Virus record (IMG/VR): IMGVR_UViG_3300037235_000018
Location: 1-32,138 of that record
DNA length: 32,138 nucleotides
Strand: one strand, 5' to 3'
DNA from: a virus
The notes below the pieces were generated by a model. The model ran no database searches. It was not told the DNA's origin and saw only the letters and a program-made list of their open reading frames with translations. Below are positions 5,602-26,672 of the stretch, in pieces. The stretch's first letter is position 1, and each line of letters begins with the position of its first letter. The translations under genes were made by a program, and so were the position numbers.

Positions 5602-6294
5602 TTAGATGGGGACAGATTGGACAATCGCATACGTCCCGGAATTCGTCGTCTGCGTTATCTGATACGTCCCAGGAGGCAACCAGCCAAGACTTTGCCCATT
5701 CGCACTGAGGGTCAATGCGGTACTCAGGAGTGTCGAGCCATCCGGCCCTACCATTTGCACTGTGATCGAACCTGCGGCCCCACCAGCCTGATCTGTGGCC
5801 GGCGACCAAGTATTCCCGGCTGTCGTCGTGCTCACCGCGTATGAGTTGCCGGCTGTGCCGACTGCCTGTGCAGTCGAAGTCAAAGTCGTAGCCGTGACTG
5901 TCGCTGAGACTTCCGCATTGGCAGTCGTAGTGTAATAATTGACACCCGCCGTACCAGAGCCATTGATACACGCTGCCAAGTTTGACAGAGCCAGAACAAT
6001 CTTCGCCGCAGTCGTACCCGAAGCCGGCAGCGTCACATCATATGCCTGGGCCAGATTGCCGACAAGCTCGAAGCGGTACGCATGACCCCCGACAGTGACC
6101 GTATCGCCAGCGGCCGGCAAGTTGGCCATTGTGAGTGTGCTAGTCGAATAGGTGCCCCAGTTGCCCGAGGCTGTCAGAACGTAGTAGCCACCTTCGAGCT
6201 GGAATTGCCCCGAGCTGGCGGAGCCGAGGTTGAACGCATTCTGCCAGCCACCTTGGGCTGACCGAATAAGCGGTTGAGCTTCTGTGACGTTCAT
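5602..6294 (-). CDS. Tail-associated protein, paralogue with inserted domain
   Basis: A 230-aa protein. Its first ~47 residues (MNVTEAQPLIRSAQGGWQNA start, QFQLEGGYYVLTASGNWG) and last ~57 residues (VQMVGPDGSTLLSTALTL, PPGTYQIT, IVQSVPI end) are nearly the same as the 104-aa neighbour at 6304-6618. Between them sits about 126 extra residues (about 48-173), with GDTVTVGGHAYRFELVGNLAQ, AAKIVLALSNLAACINGSG and SVTATTLTSTAQAVGTAGNS. This resembles a small repeated domain found inside various phage baseplate and tail proteins. The outer shell looks like a beta-sandwich similar to head-decoration or fibre-associated proteins. It has an AGAGGG ribosome binding site. The pair lies directly upstream of the tailspike in transcription order, which suggests a tail role. 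Confidence 0.75.
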   Translation of the reverse strand: MNVTEAQPLIRSAQGGWQNAFNLGSASSGQFQLEGGYYVLTASGNWGTYSTSTLTMANLPAAGDTVTVGGHAYRFELVGNLAQAYDVTLPASGTTAAKIVLALSNLAACINGSGTAGVNYYTTTANAEVSATVTATTLTSTAQAVGTAGNSYAVSTTTAGNTWSPATDQAGGAAGSITVQMVGPDGSTLLSTALTLSANGQSLGWLPPGTYQITQTTNSGTYAIVQSVPI

Positions 6295-6303
6295 GGCGCC
6301 CTC

Positions 6304-6618
6304 TTAGATCGGAACGGATTGGACGACCGCGTAAACCGCCGTCGAAGTTGTGACAGTAATCTGATAAGTGCCGGGCGGGAGATAACCACCGACTTGCCCA
6401 TTCGCTGTCAGCGTCAAAGCAGTGCTGATCAATGTTGAACCATCTGGCCCTACGATCTGGAGAGTGACGCTGCCGCCACCCCAAGTCGCGGAAGCAGAAA
6501 GGATGTAGTAACCACCTTCGAGCTGGAACTGACCGGAGCTGGAGGAGCTGAGATGGAAGGCGTTTTGCCACCCGCCCTGCGCTGTTCGCGTCAGCGGTTG
6601 GGCTTCGGTGACATTCAT
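6304..6618 (-). CDS. Tail-associated protein, short paralogue
   Basis: A 104-aa protein, MNVTEAQPLTRTAQGGWQNA at its start, ending with AVVQSVPI. It is the uninterrupted version of the fold seen in the 230-aa neighbour: a Gln-Gly-Gly-Trp motif, SGQFQLEGGYYILSASATW, then VTLQIVGPDGSTLISTALTL and a PPGTYQITVTT hairpin. The composition, rich in beta-forming and small residues, fits a structural surface protein. A GGAG ribosome binding site precedes the ATG by about 9 nt. Tandem duplication followed by domain gain in the second copy is the simplest history. No catalytic residues are seen. Confidence 0.75.
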   Translation of the reverse strand: MNVTEAQPLTRTAQGGWQNAFHLSSSSSGQFQLEGGYYILSASATWGGGSVTLQIVGPDGSTLISTALTLTANGQVGGYLPPGTYQITVTTSTAVYAVVQSVPI

Positions 6619-14715: not shown

Positions 14716-14744
14716 AGAATATACCTAGGACAGATCAAAGTCAA
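14716..14744 (-). promoter_or_regulatory. Leftward promoter at the end of the large terminase gene
   Basis: -35 TTGACT (14744-14739) lies inside the last codons of the terminase gene. -10 is TATTCT at 17-bp spacing (14721-14716) or TATATT at 15-bp spacing. The spacer contains TCCTAGG. The 11-bp string CCTAGGACAGA on the plus strand here recurs at 17604-17614. It would drive the lysis and head genes. Confidence 0.55.
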
Positions 14745-16230
14745 CCCCGATACATCCACCGGGGAAATCTGGCTTTTCCGAAGACGCCGGCCGCTTGCGA
14801 TGCTCGTAGTTCCCGAGTGCGACCGCTCGCGCATGGCGCTTCATCATGATCGCGATCCGCGTCGAGGACATCTGGTCGTCGCGCACCTTGACGATCAATC
14901 CCTTGTCACGATGATAGAAGCGATACTCCTCGAACCAGCTCGTAAGATGGCTCGCAACCTTGAAGCGGTTCGTCGTGATGCGCTGACTGATCTCCTGGAC
15001 ACCAGCCTCAGTCGAGTAGCCACCTTCCGGCCACGTCGCGTGCATCGGCAGCATCCGAAGACCGAAGCCTTTATAGAGGCTGGAGAGATGGTGCGTTGCC
15101 GCAGTCTCACCCGCAACACGCTGCGTGCCATCCTGCGGCCACGCTACTGGCACCTGAGAAGCAATAGACTTGATCGCCTGAGCGTGATGGATTGGCTGAA
15201 GGTTTGCCATCTTCATAGAATGGATCACATGAATAGCGTCGTTGTCGCGATCCCAGGCAATCAGTGTCGCGCCGAACTGATGGCCCTCACTCAAACCGAA
15301 GTCGATGCCCCAGATGAAAACCCAGTGTGCCGGGAATTCGGTGATCAGCGGTTCCTTGATCAAGTCTTCCGAGAAAGGAAACACCCGACCCGATCCGAGG
15401 AGCGCAGTACCGTAGCGGCGAGCGTCGCGTTCATAGGCCAGATAGCCGGCGAGCTTCTTTCTCTTCTCCTCCTCGGTGAAATGCTCGGCCTCGTCCAACG
15501 ACATCTGGACAAAGGTTCGATCAGGTGAACTCTCTTTTACGAAACGACAATAGAGATCGGTCTCACCCTTCAGAGGAGTGAGAGTGTTCCACATGCTGCC
15601 CGGCCCGTTGATGCGGGTGAGAAATTCACTGTACACATCCATGTCAGGCTCTTCATCACACCATCCCCAATCTAGATCGTCGCCTTGAAACTTTTCTCGC
15701 CCTTGCTCAAATGATTTGAAAGAAGCAAGTGAAGTACCATCTTCAACGCCATTCGTTTTATGAACCACCTGTATAGTGTCGTAGGCATCAGTAACGCCAC
15801 GAGCCAGCGTGGGCTTATCAGCAAATCGATCTCGTGGAATGAAGCCGGTCCCGAAAGCTTTGACCATTCCGTATTGGCCGCAGAGTTTTGTTTGGGCAAC
15901 ATTGCGAACGTCCAGAGAAGTCGTTCCAGCCACCCAACCCTTAGTGGGATGATCAAATCGTTTTCCTTCCCAGTCATTTGGATAATCTCCTGTCAGGTGA
16001 CATGCAGCAAGTTCGGCTCCAGCTTCAGACTTGCCGACGCGGTTGCCGGCGAAGAACCCTACCTCGCGATGCGTCAGGGTGGCTTTGAAGAACGCTCTCT
16101 GCTTCGGATAAGGAACGAAATAGAGCATCTTGTTGTAGCGCTTGTGCTCGTCCATCGACGCCAGGAGATTGAGAAGGTCTCTCAGCTCCTGATCGGTGGG
16201 TACCCCCTGCGGCTTACCGAGATCGATCAT
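14725..16230 (-). CDS. Terminase large subunit
   Basis: A 501-aa DNA-packaging motor protein (ATPase plus nuclease). The ATG at 16230 overlaps the previous stop as ATGA; an in-frame GTG at 16242 is less likely. Residues about 35-60 (MLYFVPYPKQRAFFKATLTH) are the usual entry to the ATPase. The Walker A is GNRVGKS (about 62-68) and the Walker B with catalytic carboxylates is WGWCDEEPD (about 188-196). The coupling motif is NTLTPLKG (about 215-222), and the RNase H-type nuclease domain starts at IWGIDFGLSEG (first metal Asp about 310). It is encoded three genes after the small subunit. Length and motifs are normal. Confidence 0.94.
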   Translation of the reverse strand: MIDLGKPQGVPTDQELRDLLNLLASMDEHKRYNKMLYFVPYPKQRAFFKATLTHREVGFFAGNRVGKSEAGAELAACHLTGDYPNDWEGKRFDHPTKGWVAGTTSLDVRNVAQTKLCGQYGMVKAFGTGFIPRDRFADKPTLARGVTDAYDTIQVVHKTNGVEDGTSLASFKSFEQGREKFQGDDLDWGWCDEEPDMDVYSEFLTRINGPGSMWNTLTPLKGETDLYCRFVKESSPDRTFVQMSLDEAEHFTEEEKRKKLAGYLAYERDARRYGTALLGSGRVFPFSEDLIKEPLITEFPAHWVFIWGIDFGLSEGHQFGATLIAWDRDNDAIHVIHSMKMANLQPIHHAQAIKSIASQVPVAWPQDGTQRVAGETAATHHLSSLYKGFGLRMLPMHATWPEGGYSTEAGVQEISQRITTNRFKVASHLTSWFEEYRFYHRDKGLIVKVRDDQMSSTRIAIMMKRHARAVALGNYEHRKRPASSEKPDFPGGCIGVDFDLS

Positions 16231-16709
16231 CTCTTGATCCACTCGAAGGTCGAACCGCGGATCGTGCTATAGAGGAGAGAGCACGCGACAGGGGTGATCT
16301 TGTTCACCGGGACAACGAGCCGTGGGAATAGGAAGCCAGCCTCACCGGCCGCGGCCACCAGCTCCGAGCAGTACCAGCTATCGGTATCGCGCCAGCCGCG
16401 GTTGAAGAGGAAGGCTAGGATCGCGGTGTGATCGTAGGGCTTGCCAATCTCCATATAGAGGAAATTATAGAAGGCCCGTTCCTGCGTCTCCGTCGCCGGC
16501 ACTGCCAAGATTGCCTGCTTCGAGAATTCCAGATATTCTTGAGGGCGAACCTGAACACCGGCCTTGATGCCTTTCACCACATTGCTGCGCGCTCCGAGGA
16601 GCATCCCATCGGGAAGTACGGCATCGACATGGCTGAATTCTCCTGCGCTGAACCACTGGATCAAACGCGAGCCAGGATCGTTCTCAGCAATGAATTGAAG
16701 TCTGATCAT
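16227..16709 (-). CDS. Permuted NlpC/P60-like cysteine peptidase or amidase
   Basis: A 160-aa protein starting MIRLQFIAENDPGSRLIQWF. Motif order is His first, FSAGEFSHVDAVLPDG (His at about residue 27), then YDHTAILAFLF and finally WYCSELVAAAG (Cys about 114, Glu 116). This is the circularly permuted YiiX/LRAT-like NlpC/P60 arrangement. Such enzymes hydrolyse peptide, amide or ester bonds. A peptidoglycan or host-lipid target is possible but not shown. It lies between the terminase subunit genes, which is unusual. A GAGGAG ribosome binding site is present, and the start overlaps the previous stop as TGATG. Confidence 0.75.
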   Translation of the reverse strand: MIRLQFIAENDPGSRLIQWFSAGEFSHVDAVLPDGMLLGARSNVVKGIKAGVQVRPQEYLEFSKQAILAVPATETQERAFYNFLYMEIGKPYDHTAILAFLFNRGWRDTDSWYCSELVAAAGEAGFLFPRLVVPVNKITPVACSLLYSTIRGSTFEWIKR

Positions 16710-16897
16710 CACACATCTCTCCTCACCATTGTCCAGGTCTTATCATCCCAGACGAATTTATTATCAGTGCTGCGGAAGAAGCAACCATCGGGGAAACCAC
16801 ACTCGGCACAGTCCTCATATCGCGGAGAGTAGCAGAGACAAACATCATGCTTCTCCGAAAAGAGCCGCGTCAGGATCGACTTCAGAAAATTCCACAT
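16709..16897 (-). CDS. Small Cys-rich protein
   Basis: A 62-aa protein (MWNFLKSILTRLFSEKHDVC...) with five cysteines: CLC, then CAEC and GC in the middle of the chain, followed by FFRSTDNKFVWDDKTWTMV. The Cys arrangement (C-x-C ... C-x2-C-x4-C) suggests a small zinc-binding or disulfide domain. A strong AAGGAGG lies about 9 nt before the ATG, inside the small-terminase gene, and the two overlap by 53 bp in different frames. The binding site is the main evidence that it is real. Function unknown. Confidence 0.65.
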   Translation of the reverse strand: MWNFLKSILTRLFSEKHDVCLCYSPRYEDCAECGFPDGCFFRSTDNKFVWDDKTWTMVRRDV

Positions 16898-17432
16898 CGA
16901 CTGGTTCCTCCTTCTTTGACTTCCTGGCCTCCAGCAGCAACTGGATCGGCCGTGGCACCGCGGTAATGAAATCGGGATTTTTGGCCAGCATGGTTTCGAG
17001 CTGGAGCAACATCACCGTGCTGCTCTCGACCTTGACACTCTGATTGATGTTCATGTTGAACTGCGCGGCGATGCCGGCGCGGTCGAGAACCGCGAGAGCG
17101 GCCTTGAGTTTCAGTTGGCCCTTTGGTTGATTGGGATTTTTCATCAAGTCCTGCACACAGGCAATCGCTTCTGCGCTGATGCTCTGGAAAGTGGTGATGC
17201 CCTCCTCGACCATCGCGGCTGCGATCTTCGGATTTTTGGAATTGTTGTGACCCTGAACTTTGCAGGAATTAGGTCCACCAGAGTATCCGGCGATCATCGC
17301 AGCGCGCGTGTGGTTGCCATCACCTATCGCTTGGATCGCTCGGACGTAGCGGCGCTGGAGATCGGTCAGCGCGAGCATCGCCGGCCCGAGTTCTGCGGGG
17401 TCAATTGGTCCTATTTCGAGATCGGTGCCCAT
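16845..17432 (-). CDS. Terminase small subunit
   Basis: A 195-aa DNA-recognition subunit of the packaging motor. A helix-turn-helix-type N-terminal segment, LTDLQRRYVRAIQAIGDGNH then TRAAMIAGYSG (about residues 22-52), is the classic terminase-small pattern. The middle is helical (SAEAIACVQDLMKNPNQPKG then LKLKAALAVLDRAGIAA), and this 'LKAA..VLDRAG' is also a signature. The tail is acidic. A CGGAG ribosome binding site is 5 nt before the ATG. It is the first gene of the leftward arm, next to the control region. Confidence 0.9.
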   Translation of the reverse strand: MGTDLEIGPIDPAELGPAMLALTDLQRRYVRAIQAIGDGNHTRAAMIAGYSGGPNSCKVQGHNNSKNPKIAAAMVEEGITTFQSISAEAIACVQDLMKNPNQPKGQLKLKAALAVLDRAGIAAQFNMNINQSVKVESSTVMLLQLETMLAKNPDFITAVPRPIQLLLEARKSKKEEPVDVEFSEVDPDAALFGEA

Positions 17433-17475
17433 ACTAACTCCGTTATCACAGCGTTATTTTAAAGTCAATGGGTTT

Positions 17476-17503
17476 TACTCGCCGAGTAGAATTTTCAAAA
17501 TTC
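17476..17503. promoter_or_regulatory. Two adjacent perfect palindromes, candidate operators
   Basis: TACTCG-C-CGAGTA (17476-17488) is followed without a gap by GAATTTT-C-AAAATTC (17489-17503). Both have a single central base. They lie 45-70 bp before the small-terminase ATG, where they could control the packaging operon. Confidence 0.5.
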
Positions 17504-17539
17504 GCCGCGAAAAATTCTCTGCGGCCGGTTTTCGCGGCG
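17503..17539. repeat. 11-bp perfect inverted repeat
   Basis: CGCCGCGAAAA (17503-17513) and its exact reverse complement TTTTCGCGGCG (17529-17539) are separated by 15 bp. It could form a stem-loop or bind a dimeric protein. No T run follows on either strand, so an intrinsic terminator is unlikely. Confidence 0.6.
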
Positions 17540-17603
17540 CCAGCGAGATCGCGGGGGTACGGCGGCGGGTGCCCCGGTCTTTCCGAGCTGGCGATCCGAT
17601 GGT

Positions 17604-17651
17604 CCTAGGACAGAATACCTAGGAATGCAAGCCTAGGCATATGATCCTAAC
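17604..17651. repeat. CCTAGG motif repeated every 14 bp
   Basis: CCTAGG starts at 17604, 17618 and 17632, with a variant CCTAAC at 17646, exactly 14 bp apart. The minus-strand sequence around 17623-17610 (TCCTAGGTATTCT) resembles the core of the leftward promoter at 14716-14744, so part of this block may be the packaging-operon promoter with repeated operator sites. Confidence 0.55.
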
Positions 17652-17669
17652 GCTACAGCGTGTAGCGTT
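17649..17669. promoter_or_regulatory. 9-bp inverted repeat, candidate operator
   Basis: AACGCTACA and its exact reverse complement TGTAGCGTT are separated by only GCG. Perfect dyads of this size and spacing are typical of repressor or Cro-type binding sites. It overlaps the last unit of the 14-bp CCTAGG series by a few bases. Confidence 0.55.
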
Positions 17670-17710
17670 ACACGGGTTAGCACGCGAGTTCGCCATCTCG
17701 GCCGAATGCC

Positions 17711-17870
17711 TGAAGCAATTGAGCGCTAGCCGAGGCAATCGAGTGCTAGCCGAGGCAATTGACTGCTAGCCGAGGCAATCGAGTGCTAGCCGAGGCAATT
17801 GACTGCTAGCCGAGGCAATCGAGTGCTAGCCGAGGCAATTGACTGCTAGCCTAGGCAATAGAGGATGGTG
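17711..17870. repeat. 20-bp direct-repeat (iteron-like) array, eight units
   Basis: Eight units with an exact 20-bp period. Units 2, 4 and 6 are cgaggcaatcgagtgctagc and units 3, 5 and 7 are cgaggcaattgactgctagc, so the true period is a 40-bp A/B pair copied three times. Unit 1 is a hybrid and unit 8 is degenerate. Each unit contains GCTAGC. Twenty base pairs is close to two helical turns, so bound proteins would lie on nearly one face. Candidate replication-initiator sites or an activator array; the early promoter begins 33 bp downstream. Confidence 0.85.
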
Positions 17871-17902
17871 CAGGGTGCGACAGTCTGCCACACTTAGGCC
17901 AG

Positions 17903-17931
17903 TTGACATCTTGTTTAAACTCTGCTACTGT
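17903..17931 (+). promoter_or_regulatory. Main rightward early promoter
   Basis: TTGACA (17903-17908), a 17-bp spacer ending in TGC (an extended -10 element), and TACTGT (17926-17931). The predicted start is near 17938, about 95 nt before the first early gene. The same design recurs at 29613-29641. Two short hairpins lie in the leader. Confidence 0.75.
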
Positions 17932-18033
17932 GTGCGATAGCGTTCGGCTCAACCGAGCCGCGACCTGCCAGAGCAGGATCGGTCTGGAGCGACGCGCTTC
18001 GCACTCGTAGCGAATAAACCTGGAGAGTTTAAA

Positions 18034-18198
18034 ATGAACACTTATAAAATCATGTACTCTCGTGAGCAGTATTACGCTGTGACGGTGCAAGCGGCCGACC
18101 CCGATGAAGCGCGCAAACTGGCGGATGAACAGTTTGACCAGAACCAGCATTTCATCGCATCAAGCCCCGTCGAATACACTGACTATGAGGAAGTGTGA
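18034..18198 (+). CDS. Small early protein, 54 aa
   Basis: Encodes MNTYKIMYSREQYYAVTVQA, followed by ADPDEARKLADEQFDQNQHF and an acidic end (VEYTDYEEV). The composition (beta strand, helix with Asp/Glu, acidic tail) resembles the small 'V.A.s.eEA...A' domain seen in many phage and plasmid early genes. GGAGA lies 8 nt before the ATG. It is the first gene after the early promoter, and its stop codon forms part of the conserved RNA element downstream. A role in host takeover is inferred only from position. Confidence 0.75.
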   Translation: MNTYKIMYSREQYYAVTVQAADPDEARKLADEQFDQNQHFIASSPVEYTDYEEV

Positions 18199-18269
18199 TT
18201 GCAGCTATTGCCCTAGTGCGGCATTCGTGCTAGGGCAATGGCGGCGATCATAGGATTGCACCGCAGTCC
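18197..18269 (+). other. Conserved two-stem RNA element, copy A
   Basis: Outer stem GATTGC (18197-18202, overlapping the stop codon) pairs with GCGATC (18244-18249, one G-U). A 4x4 internal loop (AGCT/GGCG) leads to an inner 11-bp stem (18207-18217 with 18229-18239) with an 11-nt loop. A second hairpin follows (GGATTGC/GCAGTCC, 18253-18269). The 53-nt core matches copy B at 19325-19377 with compensatory changes. There is no T run, so it is not an ordinary terminator; an attenuator, processing site or regulatory RNA is possible. Confidence 0.7.
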
Positions 18270-18293
18270 GCGCCGACATCGGGAGCAACTACA

Positions 18294-18500
18294 ATGACTA
18301 GACTGCAAAGCATCGCGGACCAATACACCGGCCGCGCATGTCGTCTTTACACTCTTCATGGCGAGAAAGACGCGACAATCTGTGGGCGCCTCAATAACTT
18401 TGCCTCAATTGCAGCGCTCGACGGCTCTTGCTCAATTGAAGTGAATTGGTTGACGGTCGAGCGCAAAATGACTAGCGACCAATTGTTCTATGCCTGCTAG
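18294..18500 (+). CDS. Small early hypothetical protein, 68 aa
   Basis: Encodes MTRLQSIADQYTGRACRLYT, followed by LHGEKDATICGRLNNFASIA and a C-terminus IEVNWLTVERKMTSDQLFYAC. Compact alpha/beta composition with three cysteines. The segment ATICGRLNNFASIAALDGSCSIEVNW has the look of a small beta-barrel. A GGAG ribosome binding site lies about 9 nt before the ATG. It sits between RNA element A and a 57-aa gene. No family recognised. Confidence 0.7.
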   Translation: MTRLQSIADQYTGRACRLYTLHGEKDATICGRLNNFASIAALDGSCSIEVNWLTVERKMTSDQLFYAC

Positions 18501-18508
18501 GTGACGCC

Positions 18509-18682
18509 ATGAGCAACAACAGTCAATGGCGACGCGACCATGACATCGCGCACCGCTGCTATCTGGCCAAGGGAATACCGCAAACGCTGACGCGCGACAG
18601 TGTGCGGCGGGAAAATGAATTCGAGCGCGCATTGGAGCAACGCGGCCAAAAGGCTGTAGAGAACCTGGAGCAAATATCATGA
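18509..18682 (+). CDS. Small early hypothetical protein, 57 aa
   Basis: Encodes MSNNSQWRRDHDIAHRCYLA, then KGIPQTLTRDSVRRENEFER and ALEQRGQKAVENLEQIS. A charged, helical protein with many Arg, Glu and Asn. Its stop overlaps the start of the pentapeptide-repeat gene as ATGA, and that gene's GGAGC ribosome binding site lies within its last codons, so the two are translationally linked. No function can be assigned. Confidence 0.7.
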   Translation: MSNNSQWRRDHDIAHRCYLAKGIPQTLTRDSVRRENEFERALEQRGQKAVENLEQIS

Positions 18683-19326
18683 AAATCTTACAACTTGGCA
18701 CTGGTAAAGTTTTATGGGAGGGCGCGGACCTGTACGGTGCGAACCTGAGAGGCGCGAACCTGTACGGTGCGGACCTGAGAGGTGCGAACCTGAGAGGCGC
18801 GAACCTGAGAGACGCAGACCTGAGAGGCGCGAACCTGTACGGCGCGGACCTGAGCAGCGCGGACCTGAGCAGCGCGGACCTGAGCAGTGCGAACCTGTAC
18901 GGTGCGGACCTGAGAGGTGCGGACCTGTACGGTGCGAACCTGGACCGCGCGAACCTGAACCGCGCGAACCTGAGAGACGCGAACCTGAACCGCGCGAACC
19001 TGTACGGTGCGAACCTGCCAGAATTTCAAATCCCGCAAGAGGGCTCTTTAGTTGTTTGGAAAAAACTGGAAAATGGGCTTGCTAAACTTCGCATTCCAGA
19101 GGATGCCAAACGTACCATGTCTCTTGTTGGGCGTAAATGTCGTGCCGAATATGCCGAGGTGCTGGAATTAATCGGCTGTACTGTAGGCGTATCACGATTT
19201 AACGATAGCTTTTCTTATGTTGTGGGAACAATCGTTCGGCCGGATAAATATGATCCTGACATTCGGATTGAGTGTTCGTTTGGAATTCATTTCTTCTTGA
19301 CGCGCGAGGAAGCAGAGAATTATTGA
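18679..19326 (+). CDS. Pentapeptide-repeat protein with DUF5758-like C-terminus
   Basis: A 215-aa protein. Residues 1-15 (MKILQLGTGKVLWEG) are followed by about 20 perfect A-D/N-L-x-x pentapeptides (residues about 16-115), enough for about five turns of a right-handed quadrilateral beta-helix. The C-terminal ~100 residues (LPEFQIPQEGSLVVWKKLEN, LRIPEDAKRTMSLVGRKCRAEYAEV...) match the DUF5758 domain often found after such repeats. Pentapeptide helices can mimic B-form DNA (Qnr, MfpA and gyrase), so host DNA-enzyme binding is possible but unproven. The codons repeat at DNA level with a 15-bp period, leaving several frames open; only this frame is coding. Confidence 0.88.
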   Translation: MKILQLGTGKVLWEGADLYGANLRGANLYGADLRGANLRGANLRDADLRGANLYGADLSSADLSSADLSSANLYGADLRGADLYGANLDRANLNRANLRDANLNRANLYGANLPEFQIPQEGSLVVWKKLENGLAKLRIPEDAKRTMSLVGRKCRAEYAEVLELIGCTVGVSRFNDSFSYVVGTIVRPDKYDPDIRIECSFGIHFFLTREEAENY

Positions 19327-21198: not shown

Positions 21199-21978
21199 AT
21201 GAAAATCTTACAACTTGGCACTGGTAAAGTTTTATGGGAGGGCGCGGACCTGAGCGGTGCGGACCTGAGCGGTGCGAACCTGAACCGCGCGAACCTGAAC
21301 CGCGCGGACCTGAACCGCGCGGACCTGTACGGTGCGGACCTGAGCGGTGCGGACCTGAGCGGTGCGGCCCTGAGCAGCGCGAACCTGACCCGCGCGGACC
21401 TGAGCAGCGCGGACCTGAGCAGCGCGGACCTGAGAAGCGCGAACCTGAGCAGCGCGGACCTGTACGGTGCGGACCTGAGCGGTGCGGACCTGAGAGGTGC
21501 GAACCTGTACGGTGCGGACCTGAGCAGCGCGAACCTGAGAGGCGCGGACCTGAGCAGCGCGAACCTGAGCAGCGCGTACCTGTACGGCGCGGACCTGAGC
21601 AGCGCGGACCTGAGCAGTGCGGACCTGAGCAGCGCGTACCTGAGCGGTGCGGACCTGAGAGGTGCGGACCTGTACGGTGCGGACCTGAGCGGTGCGAACC
21701 TGTACGGTGCGAACCTGGACCGCGCGAACCTGAACCGCGTGAACCTGAGAGACGCGACCCTGATAGTAAGCGGCCAACGATCAGATGGCTACAGGTTCTT
21801 AGGATATAGGGACAATGGTATTCTTATGATTCGTGCTGGTTGTCGTTACTTTACAGCAAAAGACGCGGTTAAACATTGGAAAACAACACGCGGTAAAACT
21901 CGATTAGGAAAGGAAAGTCTCTTGCTTGTTGCCCATCTCGTTGCTACTGCAAAACTCTTGAAATGGAGGATCAGATGA
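21199..21978 (+). CDS. Pentapeptide-repeat protein, long paralogue
   Basis: A 259-aa protein. It begins with the same 18 residues as the first copy (MKILQLGTGKVLWEGADL), and the DNA around the start is nearly identical, including the GGAGCAA(A/G)TATC leader. About 34 pentapeptides (residues about 16-188) would give more than eight helix turns. The C-terminal ~70 residues differ from the first paralogue: VSGQRSDGYRFLGYRDNGIL, then IRAGCRYFTAKDAVKHWKTT, a tail common to other pentapeptide proteins (GCR.F....A..HW). Host-enzyme binding by DNA mimicry is a family-based hypothesis only. Confidence 0.88.
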   Translation: MKILQLGTGKVLWEGADLSGADLSGANLNRANLNRADLNRADLYGADLSGADLSGAALSSANLTRADLSSADLSSADLRSANLSSADLYGADLSGADLRGANLYGADLSSANLRGADLSSANLSSAYLYGADLSSADLSSADLSSAYLSGADLRGADLYGADLSGANLYGANLDRANLNRVNLRDATLIVSGQRSDGYRFLGYRDNGILMIRAGCRYFTAKDAVKHWKTTRGKTRLGKESLLLVAHLVATAKLLKWRIR

Positions 21979-24232: not shown

Positions 24233-24401
24233 ATTATTTGACGGGTACGGCTATCGCTTAAAAGGTAAGTGGTTGCGGCTCACTTATGCGTTTGGCAGAT
24301 TTTATTATTTCAATCAAGGCCGTCAGGATCGGCAACCACCCCGGACGGCAGACACCAGCGCAGATGCTTCCCTTCCCCGAAAGTCAACTCATGAAGAGTA
24401 G
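24216..24401 (+). CDS. Small hypothetical protein converging on the primase gene
   Basis: A 61-aa protein starting MLEEVELFDGYGYRLKGKWL, with AAGGAG 7 nt before the ATG. The first ~37 residues look like a small beta domain rich in Tyr/Phe/Leu. The rest (RQDRQPPRTADTSADASLPR) is low-complexity, and that part is antisense to the 3' end of the primase-helicase gene (92-bp tail-to-tail overlap). The start is well supported; the true C-terminus may matter less. Confidence 0.55.
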   Translation: MLEEVELFDGYGYRLKGKWLRLTYAFGRFYYFNQGRQDRQPPRTADTSADASLPRKSTHEE

Positions 24402-26253
24402 ATCGCGCAAGCCGGCGAAGCGTTCTGTCCGCAGTCGTCACGTTAGCATCAAATCGTTCTTGGCTCTCGCCTTCGCTCTGCGCCGTGATCTTCATCGCCA
24501 GCGCTCGGGTGACAACGGCGAGTTCGTCATTGACAGCTCCCAAGTCCCGGAGGGAGGCTACAATCTTTCGTCTGTCGAATTCGTTTTGCACTTGATCGAA
24601 TGCTGAAGCCTCTTCATGGCTCAGCAGGTTGAACACCAACGACTGTCCCACCGGGCGACCCTCGAAGCGATAGGGTGCCTTACGCTCAGGAGCACCCCTA
24701 TGACGCCTCACGCGAAGTTTTACGTGATTAGTCCCTTCCTCACGAACGACATCGAGAACTGTGTCAACGCCATATTCCAGCGCGCTCGTGCCCCGCGTTC
24801 CTCGGGCTGTATCTTTTCCGAGATGTGCTTGGATGAGGACACTGCAACCAAATACGTTAATGAGCGACCGGCAGAAGAAGATCAGGCGATTGGCGTCAGA
24901 CGGATTATTTTCATCGAGCCCCATCATGCTGGCACTGTAAGTGTCAATAACGATGAGTTTAACGGGACGGCCTTCAATCTTGGCGCGCTCCTCTATGCCT
25001 GCTCCAAACTCTGTCAGCTCCGTTTCGATAGCCATGTGAGGACCGGCGCCCAGGAAAAACCCCGGCTCGGCATTCTGCTCCAGACCGTGGACGGAGAACC
25101 ACGCGGGGCGATGCATCTTGGCTATTTCCTCCATACTCTCATGGGCACCGTAGAAAACAAGGCCGGTGCTTGTTGGCTTTACTCCGAACGTCTCTTGCCC
25201 GGTACAGATGCCCAAGGCCAGATCGAGGGAGAGGAATGTCTTGAAGTGACCCTTCAGCGCCGACATGAGAACGATGCGGCGTTCGGGTATCACGTCTGGA
25301 ACCAGCCAAGTCGGGTCCGGTAGCGCAAGCTGTTCCTTGGTGCCCATGAACCACGGCGCCTTAGTGACAGTTGACTGCGCCGGCTCCGAGAGCGCGGGGA
25401 GGTTGGCACCTGCGAACACCTCGGATGCCGGCGCAGTCGCGTAAGCGCCCACCTCATTCTGGCCGTTGCGTGCGGCAGAGAGGACGCGCTCACGAACAAA
25501 TTCGGGTTGGTTGTTGGGAATGCAGTGAGGATACCAAATCTCAAGCATCAACTCTAGTGATAGCTCTGGAGAGAGCCCAAGGTCTCGGACGAGTTCGCAA
25601 GCGATTTCATAGCAAGTGTCATGTCCTCGCTGTCCGTCGATAGAGACACGCTTAGCGCGGACGAGATTATGTAACCTAGCTCTTGCAGCCGCGATGTTTC
25701 CAGACAGGTCCATGCGCTTGTCTGTAGCAGTAGCTGGCCCGCTGCGTGCAGCAACTCTAGTCTCGATTTCAAAAGGGAGGACAGCGGGTGCCAGAGAATT
25801 CTTTGCTTCATATCGCTTTCCTTCGACAACAGATGGAGGGAGGAGAGCGTAGCTTCCTCGGCCGCGGGTATCAATATATGGGCCAAGTCCCTTGTCAGGT
25901 TTAGTTGGATCACCAACGGAAGGCGGGAGTGACCCGACAAAATAGAAGTGAGTTCCGCCTCGGGGAGTTTGTACTTCGTAAGTAGGCGGGAGATCGAGTG
26001 CTGCAATGTTACATCCGTCATGGTAAGTGTCTCCATCGATGATCGCGAGCCCCACGTCTTCAGGTTCAAAAGCCAAATTGCAATCTGAGTATTCTGAGAA
26101 GAGCGCATTGACCTTTTCGGCCGTGTCCATCTTCGTATTGCGCCAGTCCGGCCACATGGGTATCTTCGACCCAGGCCAGCATGGGATGAGGGGATATCCG
26201 CGTGAAATATAGTCGAGCGCGGCCCCGTGCAGATCGGATGGAGTGCTTGACAA
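24310..26253 (-). CDS. Primase-helicase: Prim-Pol plus RepA-type ATPase
   Basis: Replication protein of about 648 aa. The N-terminal domain is an archaeo-eukaryotic-type bifunctional primase/polymerase (AALDYISRGYPLIPCWPGSK; metal-binding IIDGD, D73 and D75; GGTHFYF with H102; DTRGRGSYALLPPS). After a linker comes a RepA/RecA-like hexameric helicase: Walker A SALKGHFKT (about 331-339, with an unusual His-Phe before Lys), Walker B LIVIDTYSAS (about 433-442) and QAHLGKDTARGTRG sensor region. The frame is open to a GTG at 26319, but that lies upstream of a good minus-strand promoter (-10 at 26289-26284). The TTG at 26253 with GAGG 7 nt upstream is preferred. It is the only leftward gene in the early arm. 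Confidence 0.88.
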   Translation of the reverse strand: MSSTPSDLHGAALDYISRGYPLIPCWPGSKIPMWPDWRNTKMDTAEKVNALFSEYSDCNLAFEPEDVGLAIIDGDTYHDGCNIAALDLPPTYEVQTPRGGTHFYFVGSLPPSVGDPTKPDKGLGPYIDTRGRGSYALLPPSVVEGKRYEAKNSLAPAVLPFEIETRVAARSGPATATDKRMDLSGNIAAARARLHNLVRAKRVSIDGQRGHDTCYEIACELVRDLGLSPELSLELMLEIWYPHCIPNNQPEFVRERVLSAARNGQNEVGAYATAPASEVFAGANLPALSEPAQSTVTKAPWFMGTKEQLALPDPTWLVPDVIPERRIVLMSALKGHFKTFLSLDLALGICTGQETFGVKPTSTGLVFYGAHESMEEIAKMHRPAWFSVHGLEQNAEPGFFLGAGPHMAIETELTEFGAGIEERAKIEGRPVKLIVIDTYSASMMGLDENNPSDANRLIFFCRSLINVFGCSVLIQAHLGKDTARGTRGTSALEYGVDTVLDVVREEGTNHVKLRVRRHRGAPERKAPYRFEGRPVGQSLVFNLLSHEEASAFDQVQNEFDRRKIVASLRDLGAVNDELAVVTRALAMKITAQSEGESQERFDANVTTADRTLRRLARSTLHELTFGEGKHLRWCLPSGVVADPDGLD

Positions 26254-26276
26254 TGCCCAACCTCTTGGGTTATATT
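26247..26276 (+). promoter_or_regulatory. Rightward promoter for the metallopeptidase/helicase operon
   Basis: TTGACA (26247-26252), an 18-bp spacer, TATATT (26271-26276). The predicted start is near 26283, followed by GGAGG and a GTG start at 26313. It overlaps the first codons of the leftward primase gene and faces the leftward promoter at 26284-26312. Confidence 0.65.
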
Positions 26277-26283
26277 GCCGGTT

Positions 26284-26312
26284 CTTATAGACCTGTTCTG
26301 GAGGATAGTCAA
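26284..26312 (-). promoter_or_regulatory. Leftward promoter for the primase-helicase gene
   Basis: TTGACT (26312-26307), a 17-bp spacer, TATAAG (26289-26284). The predicted start is near 26277, about 24 nt before the TTG start of the primase. It lies within the leader of the rightward operon, so the two promoters face each other with start sites only about 6 bp apart. Confidence 0.65.
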
Positions 26313-26672
26313 GTGGCACACAAGTTTCTCTTGACAGCCGATCTGCTCCTTGCCACCTATAATATGGTTGCAGAGATGCCCCCGTTTGTAGGTTGGAATT
26401 TGCCGGATGGCGATGAGGTTGCGTTTCATCTAACGAATGAGAGAGGCACGCGTGGTTGGCATTCCTGTAGCAACAACAAACATGCTATCGGAATTTCCTC
26501 TGCTTGTGTTCAACGTTTTGACACTCTCATTCTTACGATGATGCACGAGATGGTTCACATGCACGAGAACCACACTAATCTTGATCGGGGTGATGTAGAT
26601 CATAGTCGTGCTTTTCGTAAGTGGGCTGAGCAGGTCTGCCGTATTCACAAACTCGATGTAGGTATCTTCTAA
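26313..26672 (+). CDS. SprT-like zinc metallopeptidase
   Basis: A 119-aa protein. The GTG at 26313 has GGAGG 8 nt upstream; the longer open frame lies under the primase gene. The zinc motif HEMVH (residues 78-82, MMHEMVHMHE) with a downstream DHSRAFRKWAEQVC (third ligand His 97) is the SprT/SprT-like arrangement. These proteases act on DNA-bound proteins in other organisms (Spartan family). Phage relatives are uncharacterised. The N-terminal half (LTADLLLATYNMVAEMPPFV, EVAFHLTNERGTRGWHS) is a normal beta-rich lead-in. It is the first gene of the operon that leads to the SNF2-type helicase. Confidence 0.82.
   Translation: MAHKFLLTADLLLATYNMVAEMPPFVGWNLPDGDEVAFHLTNERGTRGWHSCSNNKHAIGISSACVQRFDTLILTMMHEMVHMHENHTNLDRGDVDHSRAFRKWAEQVCRIHKLDVGIF

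Follow-up and report, generated by a model that had tools for sequence, protein, structure and literature searches.

A 20-bp tandem array in an uncultured phage contig belongs, by comparison of related loci, to a class of tandem arrays that recurs upstream of the small-terminase gene, by a conserved motif. We tentatively read the array as part of a packaging-initiation region, with confidence a little short of even, and its role there would probably be that of a small-terminase contact or a DNA-shape element. The window analyzed is the whole 32,138-base virus contig, which was classed as linear and is possibly a fragment.

Structural and terminase genes run leftward to the gene for the small terminase subunit (TerS; 16845-17432), and early genes run rightward from 18034. 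The features of this junction and the genes relevant to it are collected in Table 1. The gene map used here is codon scored and home-made; it took the place of a simple longest-ORF map that had put false ORFs into the junction.

Table 1. Features of the junction and selected genes of the window
Feature	Position	Strand	Basis
Large terminase subunit (TerL)	14725-16242	-	tblastn matches to annotated terminase large subunits
Small terminase subunit (TerS), N-terminal helix-turn-helix	16845-17432	-	PF03592, PDB profile matches, Foldseek
Candidate late promoter upstream of TerS, TTGACT-N17-TAACGG	17440-17468	-	Read from sequence
Perfect 11-bp inverted repeat, CGCCGCGAAAA / TTTTCGCGGCG, between the motif and the small-terminase gene	17503-17539		Repeat search
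Motif GAAAGACCGGGG plus G/C-rich stretch ending in ACCCCCGCG; candidate pac/cos-like site	17550-17583	- (terminase strand)	Locus comparison
Second periodic series: CCTAGG at 17604, 17618, and 17632 plus CCTAAC at 17646, 14-bp steps	17604-17651		Positions, lag-14 autocorrelation peak
Perfect 10-bp inverted repeat, TAACGCTACA-3 nt-TGTAGCGTTA	17648-17670		Inverted-repeat search
Partial unit copy, inverted and degenerate (85% complementary to TCGAGTGCTAGCC)	17675-17687	-	Repeat search
Tandem array of seven full 20-bp units followed by GCAAT, the start of an eighth	17715-17860	+	TRF, unit table, 20-bp-spaced direct repeats
Candidate early promoter, TTGACA-N17-TACTGT, extended -10 TG	17903-17931	+	Loose pattern
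First rightward (early) gene, 54 aa, no assigned function	18034-18198	+	Gene map
Prim-Pol fused to RepA-type hexameric helicase	24310-26319	-	PF09250 (E = 1.4e-25), profile matches

TerS matched PF03592 (Terminase_2) with an E value of 4e-5, just under the curated cut-off. Its alignment profile matched solved small terminases (6w7t, E = 4.9e-14; 7joq, E = 2.3e-12), with a weaker match to SF6 4zc3. The TerS model has an N-terminal helix-turn-helix, for which the top Foldseek match was the SF6 DNA-binding domain 4zc3; with an E value of 0.13, this predicted fold match is supportive only. As the preliminary description had stated, the phage encodes a primase-helicase (Table 1). The model of this Prim-Pol protein was poor overall (mean pLDDT, 55.5) and better in a helical C terminus (residues about 583 to 655), modeled as three helices plus short strands; this region could be a winged helix or other DNA-binding domain. 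The Prim-Pol/RepA-type helicase gene is antisense to the surrounding early genes, as it is in the closest relative.

The array is far above chance. TRF called it at 17715-17863 with a 20-bp period (7.4 copies, score 235) and with a 40-bp period (3.7 copies, score 270, 96% matches, no indels), while 40 dinucleotide-shuffled versions of the whole window reached 50 at most. The full units span 17715-17854 without indels and start at 17715, 17735, 17755, 17775, 17795, 17815, and 17835, with the partial unit GCAATAGAG at 17855. Thus, the array proposed in the preliminary description is present, with seven full units and the start of an eighth rather than eight full units. The alternation between two variants that it described holds for units 2 to 7, which consist of A (GCAATCGAGTGCTAGCCGAG) and B (GCAATTGACTGCTAGCCGAG) in three 40-bp pairs; unit 1 (GCAATTGAGCGCTAGCCGAG) matches neither. 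All A copies are identical, and the only difference among the B copies is CCTAG for CCGAG in the final one, in agreement with the proposed amplification of a 40-bp pair. Because the A/B pairs are near-identical, the array appears to be recent in origin. Each of the seven full units also contains the GCTAGC noted in that description, and these seven sites are the only ones in the window. The array lies 283 to 426 bp upstream of the TerS start, between the divergent terminase operon and the early genes.

Among the phages compared, the array is confined to this one, as judged from several searches. An exact search with the unit GCAATYGASTGCTAGCC found one viral contig (L001) and 25 genome stretches, all with single copies only; the L001 match was taken as chance, being a single copy in A+T-rich sequence. 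When up to 3 mismatches in the unit were allowed, no array was found in 25 other records. A blastn search of 16800-18400 against phages gave short chance matches only, and a DNA-level search with the corresponding region of the closest relative (locus L060) gave no matches.

Leftward from the array, the junction contains in order the degenerate unit copy, the 10-bp inverted repeat, the 14-bp series, the motif block, the 11-bp inverted repeat, and the candidate TerS promoter. The 14-bp series and the 10-bp inverted repeat had been missed in the preliminary list of elements; TRF did not detect the 14-bp CCTAGG series as an array. In another locus (L061), CCTAGG flanks a palindrome near 1056-1089. 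Perfect inverted repeats are weakly enriched at the TerS-upstream place in relatives; their candidacy as shared primase sites was dropped, since the enrichment was weak (0.46 versus 0.27 per kb for arms of at least 10). Single-strand folding of the junction gave a z score of -6, a type of score that tandem repeats inflate, and no Rfam family reached its gathering score.

The array had been placed just upstream of the early promoter. A candidate indeed starts about 44 bp past the array end (TTGACA at 17903, TACTGT at 17926), but a stricter consensus scan did not return it, so an early promoter at this position is plausible and not established. On the other side, the TTGACT of the candidate TerS promoter aligns with TTGACA in L060, and similar TTGACn-N17 sites were read in L033, L060, and L061 and found in L071 and L183. 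A transcript from the TerS promoter, if that promoter is real, would have almost no leader, with only 7 bases from the -10 box to the ATG, unlike in L060.

Relatives were found through portal and TerL alignments; Prim-Pol, TerS, or portal alone gave nothing usable. The closest relative found is contig G001 (46,583 bases; locus L060), which is broadly collinear with the window. Identities were 82% for the major capsid protein, 75% for the SNF2 helicase, 72% for portal, 63% for the exonuclease, 62% for Prim-Pol/helicase, 59% for TerL, and 53% for TerS. TRF found no 20-bp array anywhere in this contig. Its TerS-upstream stretch contains a 12-bp inverted repeat with a 23-nt loop and the AGACCGGGG block (the junction sequence of L168 is the same and is not independent). 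Since G001 has the same layout and replication proteins and no array, the array is unlikely, on this comparison, to be a unit needed by a conserved replication protein. The G001 contig both starts and ends within a pentapeptide-repeat gene, which makes an assembly break the probable cause of its linear ends.

What the window does share with relatives is the motif. AGACCGGGG followed by G/C-rich sequence occurs about 150 to 250 bp upstream of the small-terminase gene in many uncultured phages. TerL matches were present in 106 loci. Among the loci examined, from which an uncounted number with less than 150 bp of upstream sequence had been left out, AGACCGGGG lay no more than 2.6 kb upstream of TerL in 43, or in 36 without duplicates. 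Duplicates dropped before the 36-locus set was made were L067, L229, L230, L167, L168, L173, and L181. The consensus of the 36 loci is AA(A/T)AGACCGGGG(T/G), a G-rich stretch, and CCCC; elsewhere the motif lies, for example, at 3210 in L060, 1627 in L061, 7822 in L045, and 8977 in L041. After the motif comes a G/C-rich hairpin or G runs that are apparently able to form a G-quadruplex. On both strands of the terminase-bearing loci (2.21 million strand-bases), AGACCGGGG occurs 44 times, and 38 of these occurrences are within 1.5 kb upstream of TerL and on its strand.

As a test that did not start from terminase, AAAAGACCGGGGTGGG alone was scanned over 2.9 million viral contigs. The scan returned 42 loci (seven already known, four duplicates), of which 34 have a downstream TerL on the same strand, and TerS lies 145 to 468 bp downstream of the motif in all 34. 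One of the eight loci without a downstream TerL had only 116 bp of downstream sequence. By contrast, Prim-Pol was found in 6 of the 27 records searched and, among motif-bearing records longer than 36 kb, in 4 of 10 and not in the other 6. Conversely, G004 and G005 have Prim-Pol, and their loci (L131 and L068) show no AGACCGGGG upstream of TerL. These distributions indicate that the motif goes with the terminase and not with this Prim-Pol replication protein. We regard the motif as probably packaging related. The motif is absent from some relatives with similar TerL (L034, L077, and L131) and was not found in the known podophages epsilon15 and BPP-1. A literature search for AGACCGGGG and phage gave no packaging paper among the matches listed, which is no proof that the motif is unpublished.

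The place of the array, rather than its sequence, recurs in the motif-bearing loci. Arrays were defined as TRF calls with scores of at least 50 that lie no more than 400 bp from the motif, on the side away from TerS, and noncoding gaps of at least 100 bp elsewhere in the same loci served as controls. By this definition, arrays occur in 10 of all 36 loci (9 of 35 without the window) versus 3 of the 190 control gaps, and they cover 716 of 13,130 bp on the far side versus 140 of 46,135 bp in the other gaps. The motif-only scan reproduced this result, with arrays in 8 of 28 new loci; the two sets together hold 23 arrays in 18 of 60 loci (loci with less than 250 bp on the far side were left out of the 28- and 60-locus counts). 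About 70% of motif loci, the closest relative included, have no array, and the array is therefore not required. Arrays upstream of TerS were also found in 5 of 23 loci without the exact motif versus 9 of 26 with it (14 of 49 together). Since these frequencies are similar, the arrays are linked to the TerS-upstream region and not to the motif itself. In one locus (L045, contig G009), an array is present and a Prim-Pol match is absent. Such arrays were not described in the matches listed by literature searches on podophage cos sites, early-promoter arrays, and iterons close to the terminase of podoviruses.

The units are unrelated among loci, and their periods range from 11 to 55 bp. Periods favor multiples of 10.5 bp, with a mean cosine of 0.39 that 53 of 20,000 jittered sets equaled or exceeded; for the new scan set alone, 110 of 20,000 jittered sets reached the observed score. 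This helical phasing signal is modest and only suggestive, because several arrays share a locus and because arrays elsewhere in the same loci also lean toward 10.5 bp (mean cosine, 0.23). The remark in the preliminary description that a period near two helical turns would suit side-by-side protein binding remains a fair description, to which the whole-turn preference of the relatives' arrays can be added. Two loci show how varied these regions are. In L261, four different arrays of 20 to 23 bp are stacked upstream of TerS (883-1162), and in L220, which lacks the exact motif, large arrays of 24, 40, and 47 bp (1793-2186) precede a G-rich block, a TTGACA site, and TerS.

A packaging-initiation region is expected at or just upstream of the terminase genes and should contain an element conserved among relatives with the same terminase. 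The array lies in such a position, and the AGACCGGGG motif behaves as such an element (38 of 44 occurrences; 34 of 42 scan loci). Evidence for packaging is the far-side position and the presence of unrelated, mostly phased arrays at the same place in relatives. Several observations count against a simple form of this reading: the candidate early promoter lies closer to the array (about 44 bp) than the motif does (135 bp), arrays are not tied to the exact motif, and most motif loci have none. In the mechanism that we propose, the motif would be the site where terminase recognizes or cuts the concatemer, and the small-terminase ring would settle on the repeats, with the helix-turn-helix domains of its subunits contacting one face of the DNA at two-turn intervals, as has been proposed for the direct repeats of the SPP1 pac site. 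Such contact would depend more on phasing and bendability than on the letters, and the units could therefore be replaced or amplified anew without loss of function; the growth of the 40-bp A/B pair to three copies would be the instance seen here.

The closest known parallel is the pac region of SPP1 and SF6, which has direct repeats upstream of and overlapping the small-terminase start, and in which the repeats differ at the same place between these related phages (PMC4737164, as far as the available part of that paper goes). The window TerS weakly matches both Terminase_2 and the SF6 DNA-binding-domain fold. Unlike SPP1, where the box repeats are few, the window has a large uniform 20-bp array 135 bp from AGACCGGGG. 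In the same paper, the SF6 small-terminase DNA-binding domain showed little preference for the SPP1/SF6 box repeats, which counts against a simple packaging reading. A model recounted in part of PMC7672466 holds that SPP1 TerS recognizes bent DNA and not sequence. Phased repeats of any sequence would suit recognition of that kind. The best TerS profile matches, 6w7t and 7joq, are named small terminase subunit, and 6w7t is presumably the small terminase of PaP3. PaP3 TerS bound a 20-mer of its own cos sequence better than scrambled DNA, and the available portion of the source describes no repeat array at PaP3 cos (PMC7672466); no cos site was identified in the window. A more specific version of our reading, which we regard as quite doubtful, is a two-part packaging mark made of a fixed motif and G/C-rich stretch plus, in many members of this large group of phages, helically phased repeats of almost any sequence. 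The small-terminase ring would then read the repeats through DNA bending and not through letters. If true, such a shape code would explain why repeats are quickly replaced and amplified again while their place and turn spacing stay.

The position of the array is also compatible with transcriptional control of the divergent promoters. As an operator or activator array, it would be bound cooperatively at its CTAG-centered units by a regulator from phage or host, which would set the early, and perhaps the late, promoter. The short distance from the array end to the candidate early promoter fits this explanation, as do the resemblance of the 14-bp CCTAGG series and 10-bp palindrome to operators and the local density of CTAG (45 in the window versus 60 expected, with 11 of the 45 within 17601-17900). 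We nevertheless consider it somewhat unlikely. An operator array should depend on the divergent promoter, yet arrays occur in 3 of 16 loci with co-directional neighbors and in 8 of 26 with divergent ones; these are small numbers from home-made gene calls, which neither tie the arrays to the early promoter nor exclude a role there. For the earlier suggestion of an activator array for the early promoter, which stays a candidate, this means that a divergent early promoter is not needed. A Pfam scan recognized no repressor or activator gene among 20 mostly small proteins, and the four different stacked arrays of L261 would be odd for one regulator. Those same four unrelated arrays in a row also fit another explanation, in which the array has no selected function and slippage duplications simply pile up in a tolerant noncoding junction, differing by lineage. 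The near-identical A/B pairs, as after a recent amplification, point the same way, as do the unrelated units, periods, and copy numbers of the relatives, most of which have no array. We hold this neutral origin to be improbable, given that other noncoding gaps of the same phages rarely carry arrays (3 of 190) and that periods favor whole helical turns. Small phage genomes also tend to lose useless repeats.

The preliminary description had proposed a replication origin, in which the array would consist of iterons that an initiator binds to open the DNA, as RepC does at IncQ plasmid iterons; the initiator might be the C-terminal domain of the Prim-Pol/RepA-type helicase. We now judge this unlikely. 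Iteron origins such as those of RK2, F, P1, R6K, and IncQ/RSF1010 have repeats of 17 to 22 bp, in two to seven copies, with cooperative in-phase binding (PMC4980987, in part), and IncQ-3 plasmids combine 20-bp iterons with a G+C-rich region and palindromes (PMC7557826, in part). The seven in-phase 20-bp units fall within this range, the replication protein joins Prim-Pol to a helicase that matches RSF1010 RepA, and its modeled C-terminal helices could supply a binding domain. Against this stands G001, which keeps Prim-Pol (62%) and the SNF2 helicase (75%) and lacks the array; absence or variation in close relatives had been named in advance as a result that would count against an origin. The Prim-Pol helicase could still be the cognate initiator of the array. 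Iteron origins typically also have DnaA boxes and an adjacent A+T-rich unwinding region. No DnaA box (TTATCCACA, up to 1 mismatch) was found in 17433-18033, and no strongly A+T-rich stretch adjoins the array: the AT fraction around it is 0.40 to 0.45, and the richest nearby stretches are 17460-17499 (0.65) and 18020-18059 (0.70). DnaA boxes are not needed by every iteron origin. No plasmid-type or iteron-binding initiator gene was recognized among the scanned proteins, again unlike the plasmid systems. In the window the cumulative GC skew reaches its minimum close to the junction, and in G001 it does so close to the junction after wraparound. Third-codon GC skew showed no strand bias, however, and the skew pattern therefore follows gene content; with third-codon skew near zero and genes diverging at the junction, skew was dropped as origin evidence. 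The Prim-Pol domain also matches ORF904 of pRN1 (1rni, E = 1.7e-7). The available text of PMC4234260 describes the origin of this Prim-Pol replicon as a large stem-loop without iterons, and the pRN1 helicase is SF3 and not RepA-type.

How the small-terminase ring chooses viral DNA, by wrapping or threading, is debated (PMC11331095, in part), and SPP1 work has suggested shape over sequence (PMC7672466, in part). One fixed motif accompanied by many unrelated, phased arrays at the same place would amount to a natural experiment on this choice, and the motif may be of use for finding packaging sites in phages that have not been cultured. Our results also suggest that, before an iteron-like array in a phage contig is called an origin, it should be checked whether such arrays travel with terminase or with replication genes.

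Several other features of the window were observed. Two pentapeptide-repeat proteins are encoded by 15-bp tandem repeats, at 18679-19326 (with a DUF5758 tail) and 21199-21978. The gene at 22484-22834 matches a crAss001_48-related family (PF21825, E = 2.4e-20), and its G001 homologue lies elsewhere, beside the exonuclease gene. In the tail region, a tandem gene duplication (5602-6294 and 6304-6618, minus strand) encodes proteins with near-identical starts (MNVTEAQPL...).
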